The notes under the pieces are model-generated. The model made no database searches, had not been told where the DNA came from, and worked only from the letters and a program-made list of their open reading frames with translations. Positions 20,462 through 31,145 of a stretch of DNA of 64,000 bases are shown in pieces (the stretch's first letter is position 1; each line of letters begins with the position of its first letter). This DNA comes from Pseudoxanthomonas sp. SL93 (lineage in GTDB: Bacteria > Pseudomonadota > Gammaproteobacteria > Xanthomonadales > Xanthomonadaceae): the NCBI RefSeq assembly GCF_026625825.1, contig NZ_CP113065.1, positions 1,302,001 to 1,366,000 on the forward strand, written 5' to 3'. Position numbers and translations under genes: made by a program.

Positions 20462-20719
20462 TCAACGTGTATTCCATTCGTGGACGGTCAGCTCGGACGT
20501 GCCGGTGATCGCCAGAGGATCCCGTGCGGCGATGGCCTGCGCTTCCGCCAGCGACGCCACGTTGATCAGTACGTAGGCGCCGCCCGACTTGTCGCTGAAG
20601 CCGCCCGTCATCTCCAGTTGGCCCGCTTCGCGCAGCTGCTGCAGGAATTCCAGATGCGGCGCGATGACGCTTTCCTCGAAACGCGCCGTGCGCATCGCCA
20701 ACACCAGATAGCGGGTCAC
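20462..20719 (-). CDS. YciI-like small protein
   Basis: The 85-residue product ([16 protein letters not shown]...HEWNTR) fits the YciI/YCII alpha-beta ferredoxin-like fold, with the family's terminal strand SELTVHEWN. It starts at a GTG that overlaps the argH stop by 4 nt (GTGA), so it is translationally coupled between argH and proB. The usual His/Asp pair of the YciI active site is not clear here. No specific function can be given; a role near arginine or proline synthesis is only contextual. Confidence 0.75.
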
Positions 20720-22008
20720 AGGGCTTCCCATCGGGCAAGCAGTTCGGCCAGGCGCAGGTCGGCCGCGGAACCCGGCGACACCCGCGCCGCCAGGCTGCCC
20801 TCCGGCGTGCGGCCCTGCCCCGCGCTGTCCGCCGATGCCGCGGCGGCCTTGTAGGCCTCGCGGAACGGAACGCCGGCCACCGCCGCCTCCACCGCCACAT
20901 CGGTGGCGTACATGCCCGAATCGATCGCCGCACGCAGGCGGTCTTCGCGCCACTCCAGGTTCGCCAGCAACGCCGGCAGTAGTGCCAGTGCCGGCAAGCC
21001 ACGGCCGAAACCATGGAAGATCGCGCCCTTGCTGGCCTGCAGGTCGCGGTGATAACCGGAAGGCAGCGACAGCAGCTGTTCGATTTCCATGCGCGCCGCG
21101 GCCACGCTGGCGTGGGTGGCGCGCATCAGTTCGATCACGTCCGGGTTGCGCTTGTTCGGCATGATGGAACTGCCGGTGGTGTACTGCGAGGGAAGCGCGA
21201 CAAAGCCGAACTCCGCGCTGGTGAACAGCGACAGGTCCCAGGCGATGCGCCGCAGGTCCAGCGTGGCGGCGCCCAGGGCCTCCAGCGCGGCCATTTCGAA
21301 CTTCCCGCGCGACAGCTGCGCATAGATCGGGCTGACCTGCATGCGTGCGAAGCCCAGTGCTGCCGTGGTGTGTTCGCGGTCCAGCTTCAGGTTGACGCCG
21401 TAACCGGCGGCCGTGCCCAGTGGATTGGCGTCCACCAGCTTCAGCGTGTCGGCAGCACGGGTGGCGTTGTCGATGAAGGCCTCGGCCCACCCCGCCCACC
21501 ACATGCCGGCCGACGACACGACGGCGCGCTGGATGTGCGTGTAGCCGGGGATCGGCAGGTCGCGCTCGGCCTGCGCCCGGTCCAGCGCGACCTTCGCGAT
21601 CTCGCGCGACAGCGTGGCAACGCGCGCCAGCTTCTCCTTCAGCCAGAGGCGCGTCGCCACCAGGATCTGGTCGTTGCGGCTGCGGCCGGTGTGGATCTTT
21701 CGCCCGGCATCGCCCAGTCTTTCGGTCAGGCGGGCTTCGATGGCGGAATGGCCGTCCTCGAAGCGCTCATCCAGCACGAAAGCGCCCGCGCGGAAATCAT
21801 CCGCCAGCAGCGCCAGCTCGCGCTTCAGTCCCGCCAGCTCGTCGCCCGACAGGATGCCGATGCGCTGCAGGCCTTCCGCGTGCGCGGTGCTGGCCTGGAT
21901 GTCGTGCAGGAAGAACTCCCGGTCCAGCAGCACGTCGTCGCCCGCCAGGAACCGCTGGATCTCCGCATCCACCGCCACGCCGGGCTTCTGCCACAACAGG
22001 TCGCTCAT
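20716..22008 (-). CDS. argH: Argininosuccinate lyase
   Basis: ArgH splits argininosuccinate into arginine and fumarate. The 430-residue product has the fumarase/aspartase superfamily signature [12 protein letters not shown] (catalytic Ser loop) and TGRSRNDQI. It is somewhat shorter than the E. coli enzyme (about 457), with a reduced C-terminal domain. The ATG overlaps the argC stop by 4 nt. Confidence 0.95.
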
Positions 22009-22967
22009 GCCGTCGTCTCCTGCGGAATGCTTTCCAGTTCGTCGAATCCGAATGCCAGGTTGAGGTTCTGCATCGCCTGGGTCGCCGCCCCCTTGAGCAG
22101 GTTGTCCAGGGTGGCGACCACGACCAGGCGCTTGCCGCCGGGCGCCAGCGTGAAGCCGCCGATCTCGACATCGTGGCGGCCGGCGATGCGGCTGACCCAC
22201 GGGGCTTCGTCCAGCACATGGACCAACGGCTCGTCCGCATAACATTCACGGTAGAGCGCGCGGATCTCTTCCACCTTGGCCGGCTGCTGCAGCCACAGGT
22301 TGACCGTCATGGTGATGCCGCGGAAATGCGGGGCCACGTGCGGCATGAACTCCACCGGCACGCCCAGCTGGCGGCTGACCTCGCGCTCGTGCATGTGGTC
22401 GGTCAGCGCGTACGGCATCAGGTTGTCGCGCAACAGCTCGGTATTGTTCTTGTCCGACGGCGTGGTGCCCGCGCCGGAGTAGCCGGAGACACCGAAACAT
22501 TGCGGCGGCCCGGCCAGACGGTCCTGCAGCGGCGCGATGGCCAGCTGCATGGCGGTGGCGTAGCAGCCCGGATTGCTGATGCGGGTCTGGCCCGCGTAGT
22601 GCTGCCGGGTCAGCTCCGGCAGGCCGTAGTACCAGCGGTCGTCGAAGCGGTAGTCCGCCGACAGGTCCACGATGACCGTGGCGGGCGTCTGCGCATCGAT
22701 CGCGGCCACCAGTTCGGCCGCCTTGCCGTTGGGCAGCGCCAGGATCACCGCGTCGGCGCCCTTCGCGCCGACCTGTTCATGGCTCAGGTTTTCGTAACGC
22801 AGATCGCCAGCAAAACCGTCGATGTGGTCGCTGACCTTCTGCCCGTCGAGTTCGCGCGAGGACACGAAGGCAAGTTCCAGATGCGGGTGGCGGGCGATCA
22901 GGCGGATCAGCTCCGCGCCGGTGTGGCCGCGTGCGCCGACGATGCCGACGGTCTTGGGGGTGCTCAT
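22005..22967 (-). CDS. argC: N-acetyl-gamma-glutamyl-phosphate reductase
   Basis: ArgC reduces N-acetylglutamyl phosphate with NADPH. The 320-residue protein has a dinucleotide-binding N-terminus ([16 protein letters not shown]) and the catalytic Cys in [13 protein letters not shown], with the conserved His in the HVAPHFRGI segment. ATGA overlaps join it to the GNAT gene upstream and argH downstream. Confidence 0.95.
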
Positions 22968-23584
22968 GGGGATTCCTGTTCGTGCCGGGCGAGCTTCGCC
23001 AGCAGGTTGCGTTTCACCGCCGGCCATTCGCCGTCGATGATCGAGAAGATGACGGTGTCGCGCGGCGAGCCATCGGTGTGGCGCTTGTGGTTGCGGAGCA
23101 CGCCGTCCTGCTTGGCGCCCAGCCGGGCGATCGCCGCACGCGAGCGGTGGTTGAACCAGCTGGTCTCGAAGACCACGCTGATGCAGCCGAGTGTTTCGAA
23201 CGCGTGCGTGAGCAGCATCAACTTGGTTTCGGTATTGATGCCGGTCCGCTGCACGTCCGTCGCATACCAGGTGTATCCGATGCTGAGCCGGGGCACGTCC
23301 GCTTCCAGACCGTAGAACCGGGTACTGCCGACGACGCGGCCACCGGCATCCCGCACCACGAAGGGCAGCACGAGGCCTTCGGCCTGGGTCGCCAGTACGG
23401 AATCGACGTAGCCCAAAACGTCGGCCGCCTTCGGCACCTGCGTGAACCACAGGGCCGCCAGTTCATCGCCCGCCAGCGCGGCACGCAGGCCGTCGACATG
23501 CTCGCGCGACATCGGCTCGAGGCGGGCATGGCGACCCGCCAGGATCGGGACCTGCTGCCAGGCGATGGGGAGGGCGGCGGCCAT
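22964..23584 (-). CDS. GNAT N-acetyltransferase, RimJ/RimL type, inside the arg operon
   Basis: A 206-residue acetyltransferase of the RimJ/RimL subgroup. Its GNAT core has the acceptor strands [18 protein letters not shown] and the acetyl-CoA region around [18 protein letters not shown], but the P-loop is degenerate (Q-R-T-G-I-N rather than QxxGxG/A). It overlaps argC by 4 nt and begins 1 nt after argB ends, so it is co-translated with arginine enzymes. It could act on a pathway amine or be a moonlighting protein acetylase. The substrate is unknown. Confidence 0.82.
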
Positions 23585-23585
23585 G

Positions 23586-24905
23586 TCAGTCCTTCAGCGT
23601 GGGCAGGCGCGTACGGCAGTGCGCGACACAGCGTTCGATGTCGGCGAAATCCTCGATGCCGTACCAGAACACCTTCCACTTCTCCTGCTTGTAGCAGCCG
23701 TCGGATTCGGCGTAATAGAAGATGTTGACCTGGTTGTTGTGGCGCGAGCGCCAGAACAGTTGCGGATTCTCCTCGCGCATCACGTGCCAGACTGCGCGAC
23801 CCAGACCCTCGCCCTGCGCGTCGTCCAGCACGGCGAACTTGTCCAGGTAGGCGAACCCTTCCTCCTGCGTGAGGATCAGCGCGGTGCGGTAGTTCTCGCT
23901 GATGTAGACGCGGTACGGCGTGGTGCGTTCGAAGTAGTCCGGCAGCAGCGTGCGGCCGAAGCTGGATTCGATCAGTGTCTTCAGGCGCGGCAGGTCCACG
24001 CCGGCCCAGCCGCCCTCGAAGCGCAGCACGCGCTCGCCACGGCGCACCAGCGTGCCGGAACCGCGATGGGTGAACAGTTCCTTGGCCAGCTCCGCCGGTT
24101 TGGTGATGGAGACCGAGGAGGTCAGAGGCAGACGGTCCAGCAGATCCTTGATCTGCTCGATCTTCACGCGCATGCCCCCGTTGATCCACGGCTGGGCCAT
24201 CAGTTCGTCGTACTCGGTCGACAGGTTGATCGAATCGAGCACCCGGCCCTCCGCATCCAGCAGGCCGCCGGTGCCGGTGAGGAAGATGATCTTGTAAGGC
24301 TGCAGGACCTGCACCAGCTCGTTGGCGGCGAAGTCGGCGTTGATGTTGAGGATCTGCCCGCCCACGGTTTCGCCCATGCTGGCGATCACCGGGATGGAAC
24401 CCGCCTTCAGGCTGGCCTCGATCGGCGCCTGGTTGATGCGGGTGACATCGCCCACCAGTCCGTAGGTGGCCTGGTCCTTGTACTCGGCCTCGAACACGCC
24501 AGAAACAATCGACGTGGCGCGCGCACCGACCTGCTGCAGCGCTTCCACCAGTGCCAGGTTCTGCTGCAGGAAGACCTTGCGCACGATCGCCAGCACCTCG
24601 GGCGTGGTGACACGCAGGCCATTGACGGTCTGCTTGGTGATGCCGGCAGCATTCATCTCCTCGTCCAGCTGCGGGCCGGCGCCGTGCACGACGATCGGTG
24701 TCAGGCCGACTTCCTGCAGGAACGTCAGCGACGACGTCAGCGCCTCGAGGTCGTCGCGCAGCACGGCGCCGCCGACCTTGACCACGGCGAAGCGCTTGGC
24801 ATCCAGCTGCGAGAAACGCTTGACGTACTGCGAGATCTCCTTCGCGCTGGCCATGCTGGACAGCAGGCGGATGATGGTCTGGCGGGTTTGTTTGTTCGAT
24901 TCCAT
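23586..24905 (-). CDS. argB: Bifunctional N-acetylglutamate synthase-kinase (NAGS-K)
   Basis: The N-terminal amino acid kinase domain (about 1-280: [32 protein letters not shown]) is fused to a C-terminal acetyltransferase domain (about 290-439: [24 protein letters not shown]). This is the NAGS-K enzyme of Xanthomonas, related to vertebrate NAGS, which catalyses the first two arginine steps. I use the ATG giving [11 protein letters not shown]; an upstream ATG would start within the REP-like hairpin. Confidence 0.94.
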
Positions 24906-24920
24906 GTCTTCTTGCTTTTC

Positions 24921-24983
24921 GTCGGGTGGGCCCTGGCCCACCACATCATGGGATGCGCACGGCGGGCCTGGGCCCGCCCTGCG
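24921..24983. repeat. REP-like hairpin doublet between argE' and argB
   Basis: Two perfect 8-bp stems lie in the 81-bp gap: GGTGGGCC/GGCCCACC (24925-24942) and GGCGGGCC/GGCCCGCC (24961-24978). Each hairpin is flanked outward by GTCG in inverted orientation (24921 and 24983), the layout of GTAG/REP-type doublets. It could modulate mRNA stability inside the operon. Confidence 0.7.
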
Positions 24984-24986
24984 ACA

Positions 24987-26075
24987 CTACTGGAGAATCC
25001 TTGCCACGCTATCCGCATACCGTTGCAGCTGTTCAAGCGCGACCCACTCGTCGGCGGTATGCGCCTGGGCGATGTCGCCGGGGCCGTAGACAAACGCGGT
25101 CAGGCCAGCGGCCGAGAACAGCGAGGCCTCCGTCCAGAAATCCACCGCATTGCCGATCGGCAGGCCCAGATCGTCGGCCAGGTCACGTGCGGCAAGCCGG
25201 CGCTCTTCGGCGCGCGCGACGTCGCCCGACGGCAACGATGGACCGCGGAAGGTCTCTTCGTATTCGGCCAGCGCCTCGGCATTGGCGAAGCTGCGGAAGG
25301 TCGCATGCAACCCGTCCATGTCCTGCGACGGCAGCGGCCGGAAACCGAAACGGACTTCGGCGCTGGGCGCGATCATGTTGGCCTTGATGCCGCCTTCGAC
25401 CCGGCCGATGTTGAAGCGCAGGCCGGTCAGCCCGCCAAAACGCAGGTGGTGCTGGGTCTGCACGAAATCCAGCGCCGTGGTACCCCAACGCATGGCGTTG
25501 TGCAGGGCGCTGAGCGAAAGCGCGTTCTCTGCGGAAGCATGCCCGGCCTGTCCCTTGAACGCCATGCGGACGGCACTGATGCCGCGATGCGCCAGCACGG
25601 CCTCGCAGCGCGTCGGCTCAGCGATGATCGCCTCGCCGAAGCCATGGTCGCGCGCCAGGAAGGCGGCGATGCAGCGCGCATCGTTCGCTTCCTCGTCGGT
25701 CGTGAACAGGAAGGCTGCGTCGCCCTGGGTCACCTGCGCCGCGGCAACAAGTGCCGCAGCCGCACCCTTGATGTCGCAGGCGCCCAGGCCGATGGCGCGG
25801 TCGCCTTCGATGCGCAGCACATGCGGGCTCGCACTCCACGCGGGCGAGGACGGCACCGTGTCCAGGTGCACGTTGAACACGCGCTTCGGCTGTCCGCGCA
25901 CCGCAAAGAACGACACCGCGCCGGCACCGTGATCGGTCACCTCGATGCGGAAGCCGGGCAGTTGCGCGCGCAGGTAGTCGAAGATCCCGTCCGTGCCGAT
26001 GTCGCGCGGCGGATTGCGGGTATCGAACGACACCAGCGCTTCGAGGTGTTTGAGCGTGGTCGCGAGCAAGGTCAT
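24987..26075 (-). CDS. argE: N-acetyl-L-citrulline deacetylase (ArgE')
   Basis: This M20-family zinc deacetylase of 362 residues has the metal His-Asp in FNVHLDTVPSSP, the bridging Asp in GLGACDIKGAA and the catalytic Glu pair in TDEEANDAR. Its position beside acetylornithine carbamoyltransferase identifies it as the acetylcitrulline enzyme of the Xanthomonas-type pathway rather than E. coli acetylornithinase. It overlaps the preceding GNAT gene by 4 nt. Confidence 0.9.
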   Translation of the reverse strand: MTLLATTLKHLEALVSFDTRNPPRDIGTDGIFDYLRAQLPGFRIEVTDHGAGAVSFFAVRGQPKRVFNVHLDTVPSSPAWSASPHVLRIEGDRAIGLGACDIKGAAAALVAAAQVTQGDAAFLFTTDEEANDARCIAAFLARDHGFGEAIIAEPTRCEAVLAHRGISAVRMAFKGQAGHASAENALSLSALHNAMRWGTTALDFVQTQHHLRFGGLTGLRFNIGRVEGGIKANMIAPSAEVRFGFRPLPSQDMDGLHATFRSFANAEALAEYEETFRGPSLPSGDVARAEERRLAARDLADDLGLPIGNAVDFWTEASLFSAAGLTAFVYGPGDIAQAHTADEWVALEQLQRYADSVARILQ

Positions 26076-26512
26076 GCGGTTATGGTCTCGGCGTAGATGT
26101 CCGGCTTGGACACTTCCATCAGCGTCTGCGGCCTGGCCGGCGTGGCGAAGCCGTACTGCGTGTAAAGCCCGTGCGCATCGGACGTGGCCAGCATGAAACG
26201 GCGCAGCCCCTGCAACTGCGGGTGCGCCATCACCTCGGCGACCAGGGCCTTGCTGTAGCCACGGCCGCGGTGCTCAGGCAACACGAACACGTCGGCCAGG
26301 TAGGCGAACGTCGCGAAGTCGGAAACGACCCGCGCGAACGCCACCTGCCCTGCGCCGTCAACGTAGGCGCCGAAGCACAGCGAGCCCGCGACCGCGCGCA
26401 CCACCGTGTCCTCCGGGATACCCTGGCTCCAGTAAGCCTGGGTCGAAAGGAAACGGTGGATCAGCGGCAGGTCCAGCTCCGCCTTGTCCGTGCTGATGCG
26501 CAGGGCACTCAT
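26072..26512 (-). CDS. GNAT acetyltransferase between argG and argE'
   Basis: A 146-residue GNAT-fold protein with a clear acetyl-CoA-binding segment LPEHRGRGYSKALVAEV and the final strand region GLYTQYGFATPARP. It begins 13 nt after argG and overlaps argE' by 4 nt, making it the second acetyltransferase embedded in the arginine operon. Its substrate is not known; the genomic position hints at arginine-pathway metabolites. Confidence 0.85.
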   Translation of the reverse strand: MSALRISTDKAELDLPLIHRFLSTQAYWSQGIPEDTVVRAVAGSLCFGAYVDGAGQVAFARVVSDFATFAYLADVFVLPEHRGRGYSKALVAEVMAHPQLQGLRRFMLATSDAHGLYTQYGFATPARPQTLMEVSKPDIYAETITA

Positions 26513-26525
26513 CGGGACGCTGCGA

Positions 26526-27767
26526 TCAGCGGTTGATCTCGGCCCAGAGGGTCGAGCTCATGCCGAACAGCTTGATGAAGCCTTCGGCCTCTTCGACACC
26601 CCAGTCCGCCGACTGCGCGTAGGTCGCACCCTTGGCGTTGAGGATGTGCGGGGACTTCACCGCCACCGCATCGACGCGGCCACCGCGGGTCTCCAACACC
26701 ACCTCGCCGTTGACCGTGGCCTGCGAGGACTGCAGGAACGCCTCCAGATCGGCCTTCAGCGGGTCGTGGTAGAAGCCTTCGTACACCAGCTCGACCCACT
26801 TGCGCGCGATCTCGGGCTTGAAGCGGTTCTGCTGCTTGGTCAGCACGGTCTCTTCCAGCGCGCGGTGCGCGGCCAGCAGTGAGATCAGGCCCGGGGCCTC
26901 GTAGACGATGCGGCCCTTGAGCCCGATCACAGTGTCGCCGGTGTATACGCCGCGACCCACGCCGTAAGGCGCGAACAGCGCGTTCAACTTTGCCAGCAGC
27001 GCGGCGCCCGCGACGGGCTGGCCATCCAGGCTGACCGCTTCGCCGTTCTTGAAACCGACCGCGACGCGCAGTGGTTCCACCGGCCATTCGGCGCGCGGCG
27101 CGCACCAGCCGCGGGCGCCCTCACCGGGGGCCTCCCACTTGTCGATCTCGCCGCCGGACATGGTCAGGCCCAGCAGGTTCTCGTTGATGGTGTAGCTCTT
27201 CTGCTTGGCGCGCACGCCGAAGCCGCGCTCTTCCAGGTAGGCCTGTTCGTAGGCGCGGGTCTGGGTGTGTTCCTTCTGGATCTCGCGGATCGGCGCCACG
27301 ATGCGGTAGTCGCCACTGGCCTTCACGGCGAGGTCGAAGCGCACCTGGTCGTTGCCCATGCCGGTGCAGCCGTGTGCGATCGCGTTCGTGCCCAGCTCGG
27401 CCGCGCGCTTCAGCGCGGCGTCGACGATCAGGTAGCGGTCGGACACCAGCAGTGGATACTGGCCCTGGTAGCCCTCGCCCGCCCACACGAACGGCTTGAC
27501 GAAGCCCTCCCAGATCGCGGGGCCGCCATCGACGGTGACGTGGCTGGCGACGCCGAGGTCGGCGGCGCGCTGTTCGATGTAGGCGCGCTCTTCGGCATCC
27601 ACGCCGCCGGTGTCGGCGAATACGGTGTGCACGTTCCAGCCGCGCTCCTTCAGGTAGGGCACGCAGAAACTGGTGTCGAGGCCGCCGGAGAAGGCGAGGA
27701 CGATGTCCTTGGAGCCGTGATTGGTGATTGGTGTGTCGTGATTCGAAGAAGCGGGCTGGTGCGACAT
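26526..27767 (-). CDS. argG: Argininosuccinate synthase with repeat-derived N-terminus
   Basis: ArgG joins citrulline and aspartate using ATP. The PP-loop [13 protein letters not shown] begins at about residue 21, with [10 protein letters not shown] and [12 protein letters not shown] further on; total 413 residues. Relatives as I remember them begin within a few residues of this motif. Here an extra N-terminal segment of about 17 residues ([14 protein letters not shown]) is encoded by four heptanucleotide repeats. The ATG at 27767 is the only good start before the PP-loop. It follows argF' by 73 bp. Confidence 0.94.
27717..27744. repeat. Heptanucleotide repeat in the argG 5' coding region
   Basis: Four consecutive 7-mers on the + strand, GTGATTG, GTGATTG, GTGTGTC and GTGATTC, lie between the argG start codon and its catalytic core. 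Seven is not a multiple of three, so gain or loss of one unit would shift the frame. Confidence 0.75.
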
Positions 27768-27823: not shown

Positions 27824-27851
27824 TCAACACCAATGACGAATCACGAATCAT
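27824..27851. repeat. Inverted heptanucleotide repeat at the argF' 3' end
   Basis: Four 7-mers read on the + strand as TCAACAC, CAATGAC, GAATCAC and GAATCAT. They are the reverse-complement type of the array at 27717-27744. The last argF' codons and stop lie inside this array. Confidence 0.65.
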
Positions 27852-28854
27852 GGCCGCCCACCAGGGCGGCCATGATCGCCTTCTGCACATGCAGGCGGTT
27901 CTCGGCTTCGTCGATGGCGATGCACTGCGGCGAATCCATCACGCCGTCGGTAGCCTTCACGTTGCGGCGCAACGGCAGGCAATGGCTGAAGACACCGTTG
28001 TTGGTGAGCGCCATCTTGGCTTCGTCGACGATGAAATGCTTGTACTGGTCGCGGATGGGCTTCTCGGGCTCCCAGTTGCCGAAGAACGGCAACGCACCCC
28101 AGCTCTTGGCGTAGACCACGTCGGCGCCACGGTAGGCACTGTCGATGTCATGGCTGACGCGCAGCGAGCCGCCGCTTTCGGCCACGTTCCGCTCGGCCCA
28201 GCCCATGTAGCGCTCGTCCAGCACGTAGTCCGGCGTCGGGCACAGCAGGGTCACGTCCATGCCCAGCCGCGTGGCGATGGTCAGCGCCGAGTTGGCCACC
28301 GCGGTGTTCAGCGGCTTGGGGTGGTAGGTCCAGGTGAGCACGTACTTCTTGCCGCGCAGGTCGGAGGTGCCGAAGTGTTCCTGCAGCGCCAGCGCATGGG
28401 CCAGCTCCTGGCAGGGATGGGTGATCGTCTCCATGTTGATCACCGGCACCGGCGAGTACTTGGCGAAGGACTTCAGCACGATGTCTTCGCGGTCGTAGGC
28501 CCAGTCGACGAACTTCGGGAACGCGCGCACGCCGATCAGGTCGACGTAGCGGCCCAGCACCTTGGCCACCTCGGCGATGTGTTCCTCGGTGTCGCCGTCC
28601 ATCACCGTGCCCAGGTTGAACTCGATGGGCCATGCGTCCTTGCCAGGCTGCAGCACCACGGCATGGCCACCCAGCTGGAACGCGCCCAGCTCGAAGCTGG
28701 TGCGGGTGCGCATGGACGGGTTGAAGAACACCAGTGCGATCGACTTGCCCTTCAATGCATCGCCCAGCTTGTGCTGTTTGTACAGCGCGGCCTGCGTCAG
28801 CAGTGCGTCCAGCTCGGCGCGGCTCCAGTCCTGCGTGTTCAAGAAGTGCTTCAT
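27841..28854 (-). CDS. argF': N-acetylornithine carbamoyltransferase (AOTCase)
   Basis: This 337-residue carbamoyltransferase has the carbamoyl-phosphate loop [25 protein letters not shown] and [14 protein letters not shown]. The segment [12 protein letters not shown] and the proline-containing loop are the features I associate with Xanthomonas AOTCase, which uses acetylornithine and not ornithine. It is first in the arg cluster, downstream of a leader with terminator. The start is the ATG giving [10 protein letters not shown] (a TTG precedes it). The last codons lie in heptamer repeats. Confidence 0.93.
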
Positions 28855-28902
28855 CAAGGCATCCTGGTTTCGGGTGTGGGCGAAATCGGTGGGACAGAAA
28901 CG

Positions 28903-28927
28903 AAAAAACCCAGCCTCTGGCTGGGTT
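28903..28927 (-). terminator. Intrinsic terminator in the argF' leader
   Basis: A perfect 9-bp stem, AACCCAGCC and GGCTGGGTT around loop AGA, ends in six T on the minus strand. It lies upstream of argF' and about 190 nt after the previous minus-strand gene. Confidence 0.88.
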
Positions 28928-28962
28928 CCGGTTGGACAGGCGAAAACGTCCGGGTACCCAGC
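28903..28962 (-). promoter_or_regulatory. Candidate arginine transcription attenuator
   Basis: Reading the minus strand, GCTGGGT (28962-28956) overlaps the stop codon of a small Arg-containing ORF. It can pair 7/7 with ACCCAGC (28925-28919), with further CC/GG pairs, forming an antiterminator. The same ACCCAGC is the 5' arm of the terminator at 28927-28903. Ribosome stalling at Arg codons would leave the first segment free; a ribosome at the stop would cover it and allow termination. argF' starts 48 nt beyond. Sequence complementarity is seen; the mechanism is inference by analogy with trp and his leaders. Confidence 0.65.
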
Positions 28963-29054
28963 TAGATGCAGGATTCCGGTCGACGCGCACGCGAGGTCAT
29001 GCCCGAGGCCTGGCGGGCCGCGCTGTCAGCATGGGCGTGTGCGTTCATCTTCAT
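28962..29054 (-). CDS. Putative Arg-containing leader peptide
   Basis: A 30-codon minus-strand ORF ends MTSRARRPESCI then TAG, with four Arg codons, three of them (CGT, CGT, CGA) within four codons near the end. In-frame ATGs at 29072, 29054, 29048 and 29000 make the start uncertain. The 12-codon form from 29000 is typical leader size. Ribosome sites are weak (AGG about 11 nt before 29000). A weak promoter (TTGCGC 29091-29086, GAGCAT 29068-29063) could start near 29056. It is supported mainly by its fit to the terminator and antiterminator. Confidence 0.5.
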   Translation of the reverse strand: MKMNAHAHADSAARQASGMTSRARRPESCI

Positions 29055-29113
29055 GGGCGCGAATGCTCGCATGTGCTGCGCCGCAGCGCAAGGCTTGTGC
29101 GGGCCTGTGCGGC

Positions 29114-29623
29114 TCACGGGTTGCTGGCCGCCTGCTGGGACGGGGCGACATAGGGCATCACCGACACGCGGATGCGCAGCCGGTTGCCCGGATCCTCGGC
29201 CAGCCGGGAGCGGTACTTCACGCCCTTGTAGATGTAGTCCACGTCATAGGCGATGGGGCGCTGGAACTCCCGTTCCACCGGCACCAGGCGGCAGTTGATC
29301 TTCATGGTGGGTGCCGCGGCGACGGCCTTGGCCGGCGGCTCCGGCTCGTCGCGGGTGAACACGCTGCGGACCGAATCCAGCATCTTCGACCAGCGGCTTT
29401 CCTCTTCCGGCGTGGTTTCGGGCGGGCGCGGCATGGGCACCTCGTCGCACTTCTGCTCGGTGCGGCTGGCGCGCAACGTCTGGTAGACGGGCTCCACGCC
29501 CAGCACCTGCGCATAGTCCAGGCGGACGTTCTCGGCCTGCACCACGCGTTCCTGCGACCACACCGGCATGGCGGGTATCCACAGCAGGACGAGCAGGACG
29601 AGGGAGGAGCGCAAGCGGTGCAT
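29114..29623 (-). CDS. Secreted protein resembling YcfJ-like envelope proteins
   Basis: A 169-residue protein with a signal peptide (about 1-23, ending VWSQ). The start of the mature part (YAQVLGVEPVYQTLRA...C) and the C-terminal strand region (YDVDYIYKGVKYRSRLAEDPGNRLRIRVSV) resemble the ends of YcfJ-type glycine-zipper proteins. The glycine-zipper membrane segment that normally separates them is missing and replaced by a Pro/Glu-rich linker. It probably acts in the periplasm. Function unknown. Confidence 0.75.
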   Translation of the reverse strand: MHRLRSSLVLLVLLWIPAMPVWSQERVVQAENVRLDYAQVLGVEPVYQTLRASRTEQKCDEVPMPRPPETTPEEESRWSKMLDSVRSVFTRDEPEPPAKAVAAAPTMKINCRLVPVEREFQRPIAYDVDYIYKGVKYRSRLAEDPGNRLRIRVSVMPYVAPSQQAASNP

Positions 29624-29765
29624 GTGGCCTGATAGTGGTATCCCGGTGTCACAGTGTAGGCGGCGCGCCTTGAGTGGGGCTGAACACCGGGCGGCGATCA
29701 CGTGGAGGGTCGGCCCTGTGCCCGTTGACCGCAGACGGTAGAATTGCCCGGCTCTCCCCTGCCCC

Positions 29766-31145
29766 ATGCCCATGACCCTGCGCCTGCACAACAACCTCAC
29801 CCGCCGAGTCGAGGCGTTCGAACCGCTTGGCCCCGCGCCCACCCTGTATGTGTGCGGGCCTACCGTCTACAACTACGTCCACATCGGCAATGCTCGCGGC
29901 CCGGTGGTGTTCGGTGTGCTGGCCGCGCTGTTGCGCCGTCGCTACGGACAGTTGCGCTATGCCCGCAACATCACCGACGTGGACGACAAGATCAACGCCG
30001 CGGCCAAGGAACTGGGCGTGGCGATCTCGGCCATCACCGACCGCTATGCCGACGCCTACCGGCAGGACATGGCAGGGCTTGGGGTCACCGGGGAGTTCGC
30101 TCCGGACATCGAACCCGCCGCCACGGCGCACATCCCGCAGATCGTCGCGATGATCGAGCGGCTGATCGAAGCCGGCCATGCCTACGCGGCCGAGGGGCAT
30201 GTGCTGTTCGCGGTCAATACCTTCGCCGACTACGGCAAGCTCTCGCGCCGCGACCCCGACGAGATGCTGGCCGGCGCACGCGTGGAGGTGGCGCCGTACA
30301 AGCGCGATCCAGGCGACTTCGTGCTGTGGAAGCCCTCCACGCCCGACCTGCCGGGCTGGGACTCGCCCTGGGGCACGGGCCGCCCCGGCTGGCATATCGA
30401 ATGCTCGGCGATGGCGGCCGCCCACCTGGGCGAGACCATCGACATCCATGCCGGCGGCGTGGACCTGCAGTTCCCGCACCACGAAAACGAGGTGGCGCAG
30501 AGCGAATGCGCGCATGGCGGCCGTACCTTCGCCCGTTTCTGGCTGCACAACGGCATGCTCAACTTCGGCGGCGCCAAGATGAGCAAGTCGCTGGGCAACA
30601 TCGAGAAGGTCCACGACCTGCTGCAGCAGCATCCGCCGGAAGCCCTGCGTTATGCCTTGCTGTCCGCCCACTACCGGCAGCCGCTGGACTGGTCGGAAGC
30701 CCTGGTGGAACAGGCGAAGAACACGCTGGATCGCCTTTACGGCACCCTGCGTGACCTGGCCGACGTCTCGGCCACGCCGGTAACGCCCGGCGTGATCGAG
30801 GAAGCGCTGGACGACGATCTCAACACGCCGCAGGCGCTGGCCGAGATCGCCCGGATCGCGGCGGAAGCACGCAAGGCCACCACCGCTGACGCGCGCCAGC
30901 GCCTGAAGTCCGAACTGCTGGGTGCCGGCGTTGTCCTCGGCCTGCTGCAGCAGGAACCGGCCGCCTGGTTCGGGCGTGGCGCCTCGAACGACGACGATGC
31001 GCGCATCCAGTCGCTGATCGACGAACGTGCGGCTGCGAAGACGGCCCGCGATTTCGCGCGTTCCGATGCCATCCGCGATCAGCTGGCGGCCGAGGGCATC
31101 CTGCTGGAAGACACGCCGCAAGGCGTACGCTGGAAGCGGGCCTGA
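29766..31145 (+). CDS. cysS: Cysteinyl-tRNA synthetase
   Basis: This class I synthetase charges tRNA-Cys. The 459-residue protein has the zinc Cys in YVCGPTVYN, the HIGH-type motif HIGNARG, the zinc ligands in ECSAMAAAH and [13 protein letters not shown], and the KMSKS motif [10 protein letters not shown], with the helical anticodon domain beyond. An ATG two codons downstream (MTLRLHN) is an equally good start. A TAGAAT -10-like box at 29739-29744 lies upstream, without a well-placed -35. Confidence 0.96.

Follow-up and report, generated by a model that had tools for sequence, protein, structure and literature searches.

Conserved arginine-codon leader ahead of the argF' cluster in Pseudoxanthomonas and its relatives: a probable near-leaderless attenuator

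Organization of the leader and the arg cluster

The window, i.e. the whole stretch of DNA analysed, comprises 64,000 nt of Pseudoxanthomonas sp. SL93 (NZ_CP113065.1, positions 1,302,001–1,366,000) and contains an arginine biosynthetic cluster preceded by a short leader, both on the minus strand (Table 1). The argF' gene has its closest named relative in Pseudoxanthomonas mexicana (98%), and two GNAT acetyltransferase genes (22964–23584 and 26072–26512) sit inside the cluster. The leader ORF, translated from ATG 29054, encodes the 30 aa peptide MKMNAHAHADSAARQASGMTSRARRPESCI and ends ATG ACC TCG CGT GCG CGT CGA CCG GAA TCC TGC ATC TAG; it is followed by the segment GCTGGGT, an intrinsic terminator and argF', with 48 nt between the end of the T run and the argF' ATG (28854). 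An earlier note on this DNA had described a minus-strand ORF ending M-T-S-R-A-R-R-P-E-S-C-I-stop, with GCTGGGT placed on its stop codon, complementary to the terminator 5' arm and 48 nt before argF', and these elements are present as described and in that order. The several possible ATGs that it had named as a weak point can now be narrowed to a likely start at 29054.

Table 1. Predicted features of the leader locus and the arg cluster in the window
Feature	Position	Strand	Remarks
Promoter -35, TTGCGC	29091–29086	-	Layout common to 174/193 distinct leaders
Promoter spacer		-	17 nt, ends in TGC; between -35 and -10
Promoter -10, GAGCAT	29068–29063	-	Whole promoter 29063–29091
Leader ORF, 30 aa, ATG 29054	28962–29054	-	Homologous ORF in 198/198 distinct argF' upstreams
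Leader stop codon, TAG	28964–28962	-	Read from sequence
Control codons CGT GCG CGT CGA (R-A-R-R)	28980–28991	-	Three Arg in 184/184 cores (anchored on SRARR)
Antiterminator 5' arm, GCTGGGT	28956–28962	-	Begins on last base of TAG; GCTGGG-like element in 192/198
Intrinsic terminator, AACCCAGCC-AGA-GGCTGGGTT plus T run	28903–28927	-	5' arm also pairs in antiterminator
Rfam RF02242 (Xoo5) match	28933–29056	-	60 bits; stops just short of terminator
argF', N-acetylornithine carbamoyltransferase	27841–28854	-	NF003384, E 1e-192; first gene after leader
Remaining arg cluster	20716–27713	-	argG, GNAT, argE-type deacetylase, argB-type kinase, GNAT, by profile matches
argC- and argH-like ORFs	within 20716–27713	-	Judged by eye from translation

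The terminator is the single terminator-like site in 28600–29800 (0.5 expected). There are ten such sites in the whole window, seven with a short ORF ahead, and four of these seven, the leader included, reach three Arg in six codons, such that the window-wide control is not discriminating. The 221-nt region is no more stable than its shuffles (z 0.23, one single-sequence fold), the leader peptides match no NCBIfam or Pfam family, and a search for a second copy in the genome gave one perfect match and eight places with one or two mismatches (reversed control pattern: 4). The leader is thus unexceptional in the window by itself, and the case rests on conservation.

Conservation within the window's family and f12

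Upstream regions were compared in two families of the order, f1 (the window's) and f12, where the argF' start could be placed at 206 of 207 loci. Their upstream regions come to 198 distinct ones, 152 of them picked by argF' alone. The leader ORF is present in every one of the 198 and S-R-A-R-R can be read in each; the leader is also found at 80/80 named loci from Xanthomonas, Stenotrophomonas, Pseudoxanthomonas, Luteimonas, Lysobacter and others. A GCTGGG-like element lies 14–21 nt past the third Arg codon in 192/198 leaders (17 or 18 nt in 175) and is missing by the pattern used in the other six, and a terminator is found in 198/198 by a permissive rule, with one locus (L177) doubtful. The Arg codons, the stop-proximal element and the terminator are thus all kept in relatives, as the earlier note's reading implied.

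The peptide is conserved well beyond the Arg codons. In the 184 distinct cores, which were anchored on SRARR, Arg stands at all three positions (184/184), in part as a consequence of this anchoring. Around M-T-S-R-A-R-R, from codon -4 to codon +5, first and second codon positions are almost without diversity; x(-3) is the exception, joined to a slight degree by G(-2). No amino acid change occurs at A(-4) or at M, S and R-A-R-R, and G and T are almost as constant. Third positions vary (0.33–0.62) at A(-4), x(-3) and G(-2) and at T, R1, A and R2, but hardly at S and R3, and the contrast between fixed first and second and free third positions points to selection on the amino acids. Selection on the codons themselves can also be seen within the core: the third core Arg codon is CGA in 181/184, with CGA making up 1.4% of the 209 Arg codons in the window's genes (kinship ignored), and CGG accounts for 2/552 core Arg codons as against 56/122 at the upstream Arg(-6) (kinship again ignored).

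Two individual loci are of note. L227, from the window's genus (genome G035) and outside the 198, reads ASGTTSRTRRPEPLN with S-R-T-R-R; its core Met and Ala are changed and all three Arg are kept, making it a natural codon-versus-peptide variant. The leader also turns up, together with an argF' locus of Xanthomonadaceae type, in a record titled Bacillus subtilis SK7B5 (L293), likely a contaminated assembly.

Promoter, pairing and geometry

The earlier note had counted a weak Shine-Dalgarno (SD) sequence and a weak promoter among its weak points. The SD is indeed weak, and a strict sigma-70 scan finds no promoter at the locus; comparison of leaders alone nevertheless brings out TTGCGC-N17-GAGCAT. 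The corresponding pattern (TTGY-N16-18-xAxxxT ahead of the leader ATG) is found in 174/193 distinct leaders, as against 0.2% in shuffles, and among the 174 the spacer is 17 nt in 164, TG precedes the -10 in 161, and the -10 ends 8–10 nt before the ATG in 131. Of the 19 misses, 15 belong to the 16 f12 loci (L192–L207), in which there are several upstream ATGs. The position of the promoter outside f12 means that the leader ORF usually starts a few nucleotides from the predicted RNA 5' end, which in the window is 29056, ~2 nt before the ATG; the sole mapped end is that obtained by RACE (rapid amplification of cDNA ends) in X. oryzae for the RNA Xoo5 (see below). The leader ORF is thus probably nearly leaderless, with which a weak SD is consistent. 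The earlier note's reading would not hold if transcription started downstream of 28962, and both the promoter upstream of the leader and the RACE end place the start ahead of that position.

The terminator 5' arm can pair either with its 3' arm or with the GCTGGGT element, so that the two structures are mutually exclusive. An exact complement to the 5' arm of at least 7 nt is present in 124/198 leaders, compared to 2.9% in shuffles, and a standard pair is kept at the variable third base in 183/190 (U-A 143, C-G 23, U-G 17); the remaining seven have a C-A mismatch that breaks the antiterminator. The C-G version occurs mostly in f12 and is weak as independent covariation. In f1 alignments the outer 7-bp helix alone is conserved and the inner antiterminator is variable, and in the window's genus the stop is shifted and GCTGGG has ceased to encode Ala-Gly, yet its bases remain, which argues that the element is kept as RNA. 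The pairing that the earlier note had proposed is accordingly conserved.

The geometry was computed for 191 leaders (seven left out) under an assumed cover of 15 nt downstream of the first P-site base. With the first or the third Arg codon in the A site the element is fully free in 191/191, and with the ribosome at the stop codon it is covered in 191/191. The mean fraction of the terminator 5' arm paired upstream before the 3' arm exists is 0.74 with the ribosome at the third Arg and 0.35 at the stop, and in the window's own leader it is 0.80 versus 0.08. A 1:2 protector stem was not identified in one single-sequence fold.

Identity with the catalogued RNA Xoo5

The leader matches the Rfam family RF02242 (Xoo5): the covariance model scores 60 bits on 29056–28933, above the gathering cut-off of 50. 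At E ≤ 0.001 the model matches in 162/397 genomes of the order, 84 of them over the cut-off, and in none of 14 control genomes; three genomes (G171, G241 and G309) have two matches apiece. All 30 of the best Rfam Xoo5 matches that were fetched lie directly upstream of argF'. The model is narrower than the leader, since unmatched genomes (e.g. G089 and G302) still have the ORF.

Xoo5 was found in Xanthomonas oryzae pv. oryzae, where the accessible parts of the report give 124 nt by RACE and cloning and Northern bands of ~130 and ~100 nt. Its downstream gene is PXO_00353, which a different table of that paper lists as N-acetylornithine carbamoyltransferase (PMC3039613). The 124-position model starts two bases before the leader AUG, and if, as we infer from the equal length of 124, model position 1 is the RACE end, the RACE end 2 nt before the AUG makes the leader nearly leaderless. 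The cloned 3' end (position 124) falls just before the hairpin, and both this end and the Northern sizes, as given in those parts of the report, are shorter than the ~155 nt predicted for a terminated leader. Xoo5 is thus the same RNA as this leader, filed as a small RNA gene, and a leader ORF or attenuator is not mentioned for it in the available text of that paper (PMC3039613). A table there also lists argininosuccinate synthase and N-acetylornithine carbamoyltransferase as both lowered in a mutant of a different small RNA, sRNA-Xoo1 (PMC3039613). Under the attenuator reading the catalogued small RNA Xoo5 is explained as an arg leader.

Other families of the order

In four further families (f4, f6, f7 and f9; 65 loci taken from 71 places found) the leader peptides differ (e.g. 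MTAHVHFQTQLQALGSHAALRRRRRSSQRRAG, MKPGFTCRMFEQRREPRRTRLHSRAG and MNVSARRTVVRVLRRELPRRRRCAQPGWTET). Arg runs are kept (RRRRR, RRLRRP, RREPRR), as are a C(T/C)GGGT element and, in range at 49/65 loci, a terminator that is mostly CCCAGC...GCTGGG. An ATG-initiated ORF with at least three Arg in six codons precedes the terminator in 42 of these 49 (20% in shuffles), or 43 with a GTG-start ORF at L332, and at least four Arg in six codons are found in 33 of 45 scored ORFs (two repeats) compared to 2.5% of nucleotide-shuffled ORFs, these counts being for the Arg-richest ORF of each locus, a choice that favours the attenuator reading. CGA makes up 83/255 Arg codons in these leaders but 8.9% of the 1467 in their argF' frames (Fisher p 6e-21). 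A similar promoter pattern is present in 31/42 loci (3.5% in shuffles), mostly 6–7 nt before the ATG.

Of the 16 loci with no terminator in range, one is an f7 locus and the other 15 come from f9, for which 30 loci (L341–L370) were fetched; the best ORFs of the 16 have 0–2 Arg in 12 and three Arg in 4. Five further f9 loci have a terminator-like match and no Arg leader; f9 loci of this kind include L354, L361 and L365, and others of the family have both terminator and Arg leader. With half of the f9 loci lacking the terminator and five more the Arg leader, the switch is dispensable in that family.

Twenty further loci comprise seven of the GMTSRARR type (including GTTSRTRR at L227), eight of the Arg-run type and five with no visible leader. 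A strict 21-nt pattern, blind to other peptides, was found in 5/369 genomes of the class, all of them Xanthomonadales.

ArgR and other arginine control

No match to the single ArgR profile used (PF01316) was found in 149 genomes of the window's family, where other regulators may operate. Among 299 genomes drawn from the order there are eight matches, all in family f11, so that the eight include no f9 genome. The f11 carbamoyltransferase is only 40–42% identical, and no leader is present at the two f11 upstreams inspected (G046 and G055); in these two genomes an ArgR gene lies 1.2 kb from the diverged carbamoyltransferase gene (L216 and L223).

The carA gene was found in 24/25 genomes (25 loci), with a hairpin-plus-T candidate at eight, an ORF with at least three Arg in six codons at seven and both at four (L381, L384, L386 and L393). 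An argF'-like layout is seen, by eye, at none of the 25, and the window's own carA has neither the hairpin-plus-T nor the Arg ORF. Six loci (L381, L384, L386, L387, L392 and L393) share a GCCGC-GTYC-GCGGT hairpin followed by TTCTTG, 54–63 nt before carA. In the accessible parts of the respective papers, X. citri carAB is reported to be repressed by arginine (PMC4619228), and a leader peptide with pyrimidine attenuation is stated for P. aeruginosa carA (PMC4997734). An Rfam scan of 28850–29150 up to E 1 yields Xoo5 and no T-box.

Proposed mechanism and alternatives

Conservation, pairing and computed geometry support the earlier note's reading of the locus, and very probably the argF' cluster is preceded by an arginine-specific, ribosome-mediated transcription attenuator. 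The failure to detect ArgR in the family is also in favour of this reading; against it stand the conserved non-Arg residues in the window's clade, the broken antiterminator of 7/190 leaders, the six leaders missing the element, the shortness of Xoo5 and the f9 loci that lack terminator or Arg leader. From these comparisons we infer translation of the leader, its response to arginine and the direction of the switch. Transcription would start ~2 nt before the leader AUG, and a ribosome would load at the 5' end and trail the RNA polymerase. With enough charged tRNA-Arg the ribosome would pass R-A-R-R and reach the stop codon, where its footprint would cover GCTGGGT, allowing the terminator to form and a leader RNA of ~155 nt to be released. 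With arginine short, the ribosome would stall on CGY-GCN-CGY-CGA and leave GCTGGGT free to pair with the terminator 5' arm once this is made, such that the polymerase would continue into argF' and the later genes.

The frozen peptide of the window's clade could alternatively be a nascent-peptide sensor, A-x-G-M-T-S-R-A-R-R in the exit tunnel responding to free arginine and arresting the ribosome without tRNA starvation. The invariance of A(-4), M, S, R, A, R and R, the near invariance of G and T and the mostly free third positions in the 184 cores speak for such a sensor, but f4, f6, f7 and f9 keep only the Arg runs, and a ribosome held at R-A-R-R when arginine is abundant would leave the antiterminator free and turn biosynthesis on, so that we regard it as unlikely. 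Arrest peptides of the SpeFL type act at the stop codon. The fixed motif-to-stop distance of that type is not seen here: the third Arg codon is 12, 15, 21, 24, 27 and 48 nt from the stop in 5, 33, 11, 144, 4 and 1 of the 198 leaders, and six different distances make a fixed arrest at the stop unlikely. It is more doubtful still that Xoo5 works chiefly in trans, as a small RNA or through its peptide, with attenuation secondary. The short RNA on Northern blots (PMC3039613, accessible parts), the precedent of rnTrpL and peTrpL in Sinorhizobium meliloti (PMC7298713, likewise) and conservation at the peptide level are in its favour; the best Rfam matches fetched, however, all sit at argF', and it is the Arg runs, the element and the terminator that are kept across families. 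A role in trans and attenuation could coexist.

That the hairpin terminates the upstream gene, with a spurious ORF and an argF' promoter further downstream, has very little to recommend it. A same-strand ORF does end at 29114, but the promoter and the RACE end fall downstream of that gene and ahead of the hairpin, the ORF shows coding selection, and in 11 of the 49 other-family loci the stem ends 19–21 nt before argF', leaving no room for another promoter. An untranslated antiterminator operated by a protein or ligand (T-box or riboswitch) is equally hard to credit; nothing was found in its support, Rfam giving Xoo5 only at this place, and both the codon pattern, fixed at first and second positions and free at third ones, and the variable inner antiterminator in f1 are against it.

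Relation to known attenuators

The trp, his, leu, thr and phe attenuators of proteobacteria have a leader ORF in which codons for the amino acid of the pathway stand in tandem, a stop codon near the antiterminator and an intrinsic terminator. The argF' leader shares this layout, with its tandem Arg codons, the stop at the antiterminator arm and the terminator before the first gene, and the Arg-rich leader ORF (198/198, and 42/49 elsewhere) and terminator (198/198, and 49/65 elsewhere) are found throughout or in most loci. It differs in the amino acid, in an ORF that is probably nearly leaderless, in having no clear 1:2 protector and, in one clade, in a peptide conserved beyond the control codons. 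The available portion of PMC1262725 lists histidine, threonine and phenylalanine under attenuators and arginine under T-boxes.

An arginine biosynthetic attenuator with an intrinsic terminator is not among the literature matches listed, which are to openly licensed papers, and the nearest is orf34 of Salmonella speF, where two Arg codons sense arginine through ribosome position (PMC6386406, in part). The likeness lies in consecutive Arg codons and a conserved peptide, with pausing at low arginine turning the gene on and arrival at the stop turning it off; orf34 differs in acting through RNase G decay and Rho, in controlling an ornithine decarboxylase gene and in having a Shine-Dalgarno sequence on the ORF. 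According to the same sections of PMC6386406, exchanging the orf34 Arg codons for rare CGA or frequent CGC leaves regulation unchanged, such that the fixed CGA here need not be required, and the orf34 peptide expressed in trans has no effect. The Salmonella his leader is de-attenuated by Arg-Arg pairs with CGA, and in that organism the same tRNAs read CGU, CGC and CGA (PMC4046918, in part). In the S. meliloti trpL leader, as far as the available text goes, the RNA begins at the leader ATG, close to what is predicted here, and the terminated leader is a small RNA; it differs in its tryptophan codons and in the trans roles demonstrated for rnTrpL and peTrpL (PMC7298713). To judge by a title in the references of PMC4046766, the Corynebacterium glutamicum ilvBNC attenuator leader peptide also lacks a ribosome-binding site; it has branched-chain codons and belongs to the Actinobacteria. 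Ribosome-mediated attenuation, leaderless attenuators and the sensing of arginine through leader codons (speF, with another output) are thus already known.

Significance

The catalogued RNA, the probably near-leaderless ORF, the failure to detect ArgR in the family and the conservation of the peptide beyond its Arg codons were all absent from the earlier note. Plain attenuation would need the control codons alone, and A-x-G-M-T-S, which is frozen in one clade and absent in the other families, is left unexplained by it; the nascent peptide may have an added role in the window's clade. As a tentative proposal, with somewhat worse than even prospects, the near-leaderless attenuator may be the main arginine sensor of the window's family and its closest relatives, in which ArgR is not detected, with starvation at CGY-GCN-CGY-CGA joined either by a co-selected A-x-G-M-T-S-R-A-R-R chain that would set the dwell on a slow CGA or by a second job in trans for the leader peptide or RNA. 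Since the Arg codons are kept while the surrounding peptide is either free or frozen, codon and peptide sensing should be separable by experiment. If the attenuator reading is true, an arginine biosynthetic cluster would join those under classical leader-peptide attenuation, and there would be a concrete, testable answer to how arginine control is achieved in bacteria without a detectable ArgR.
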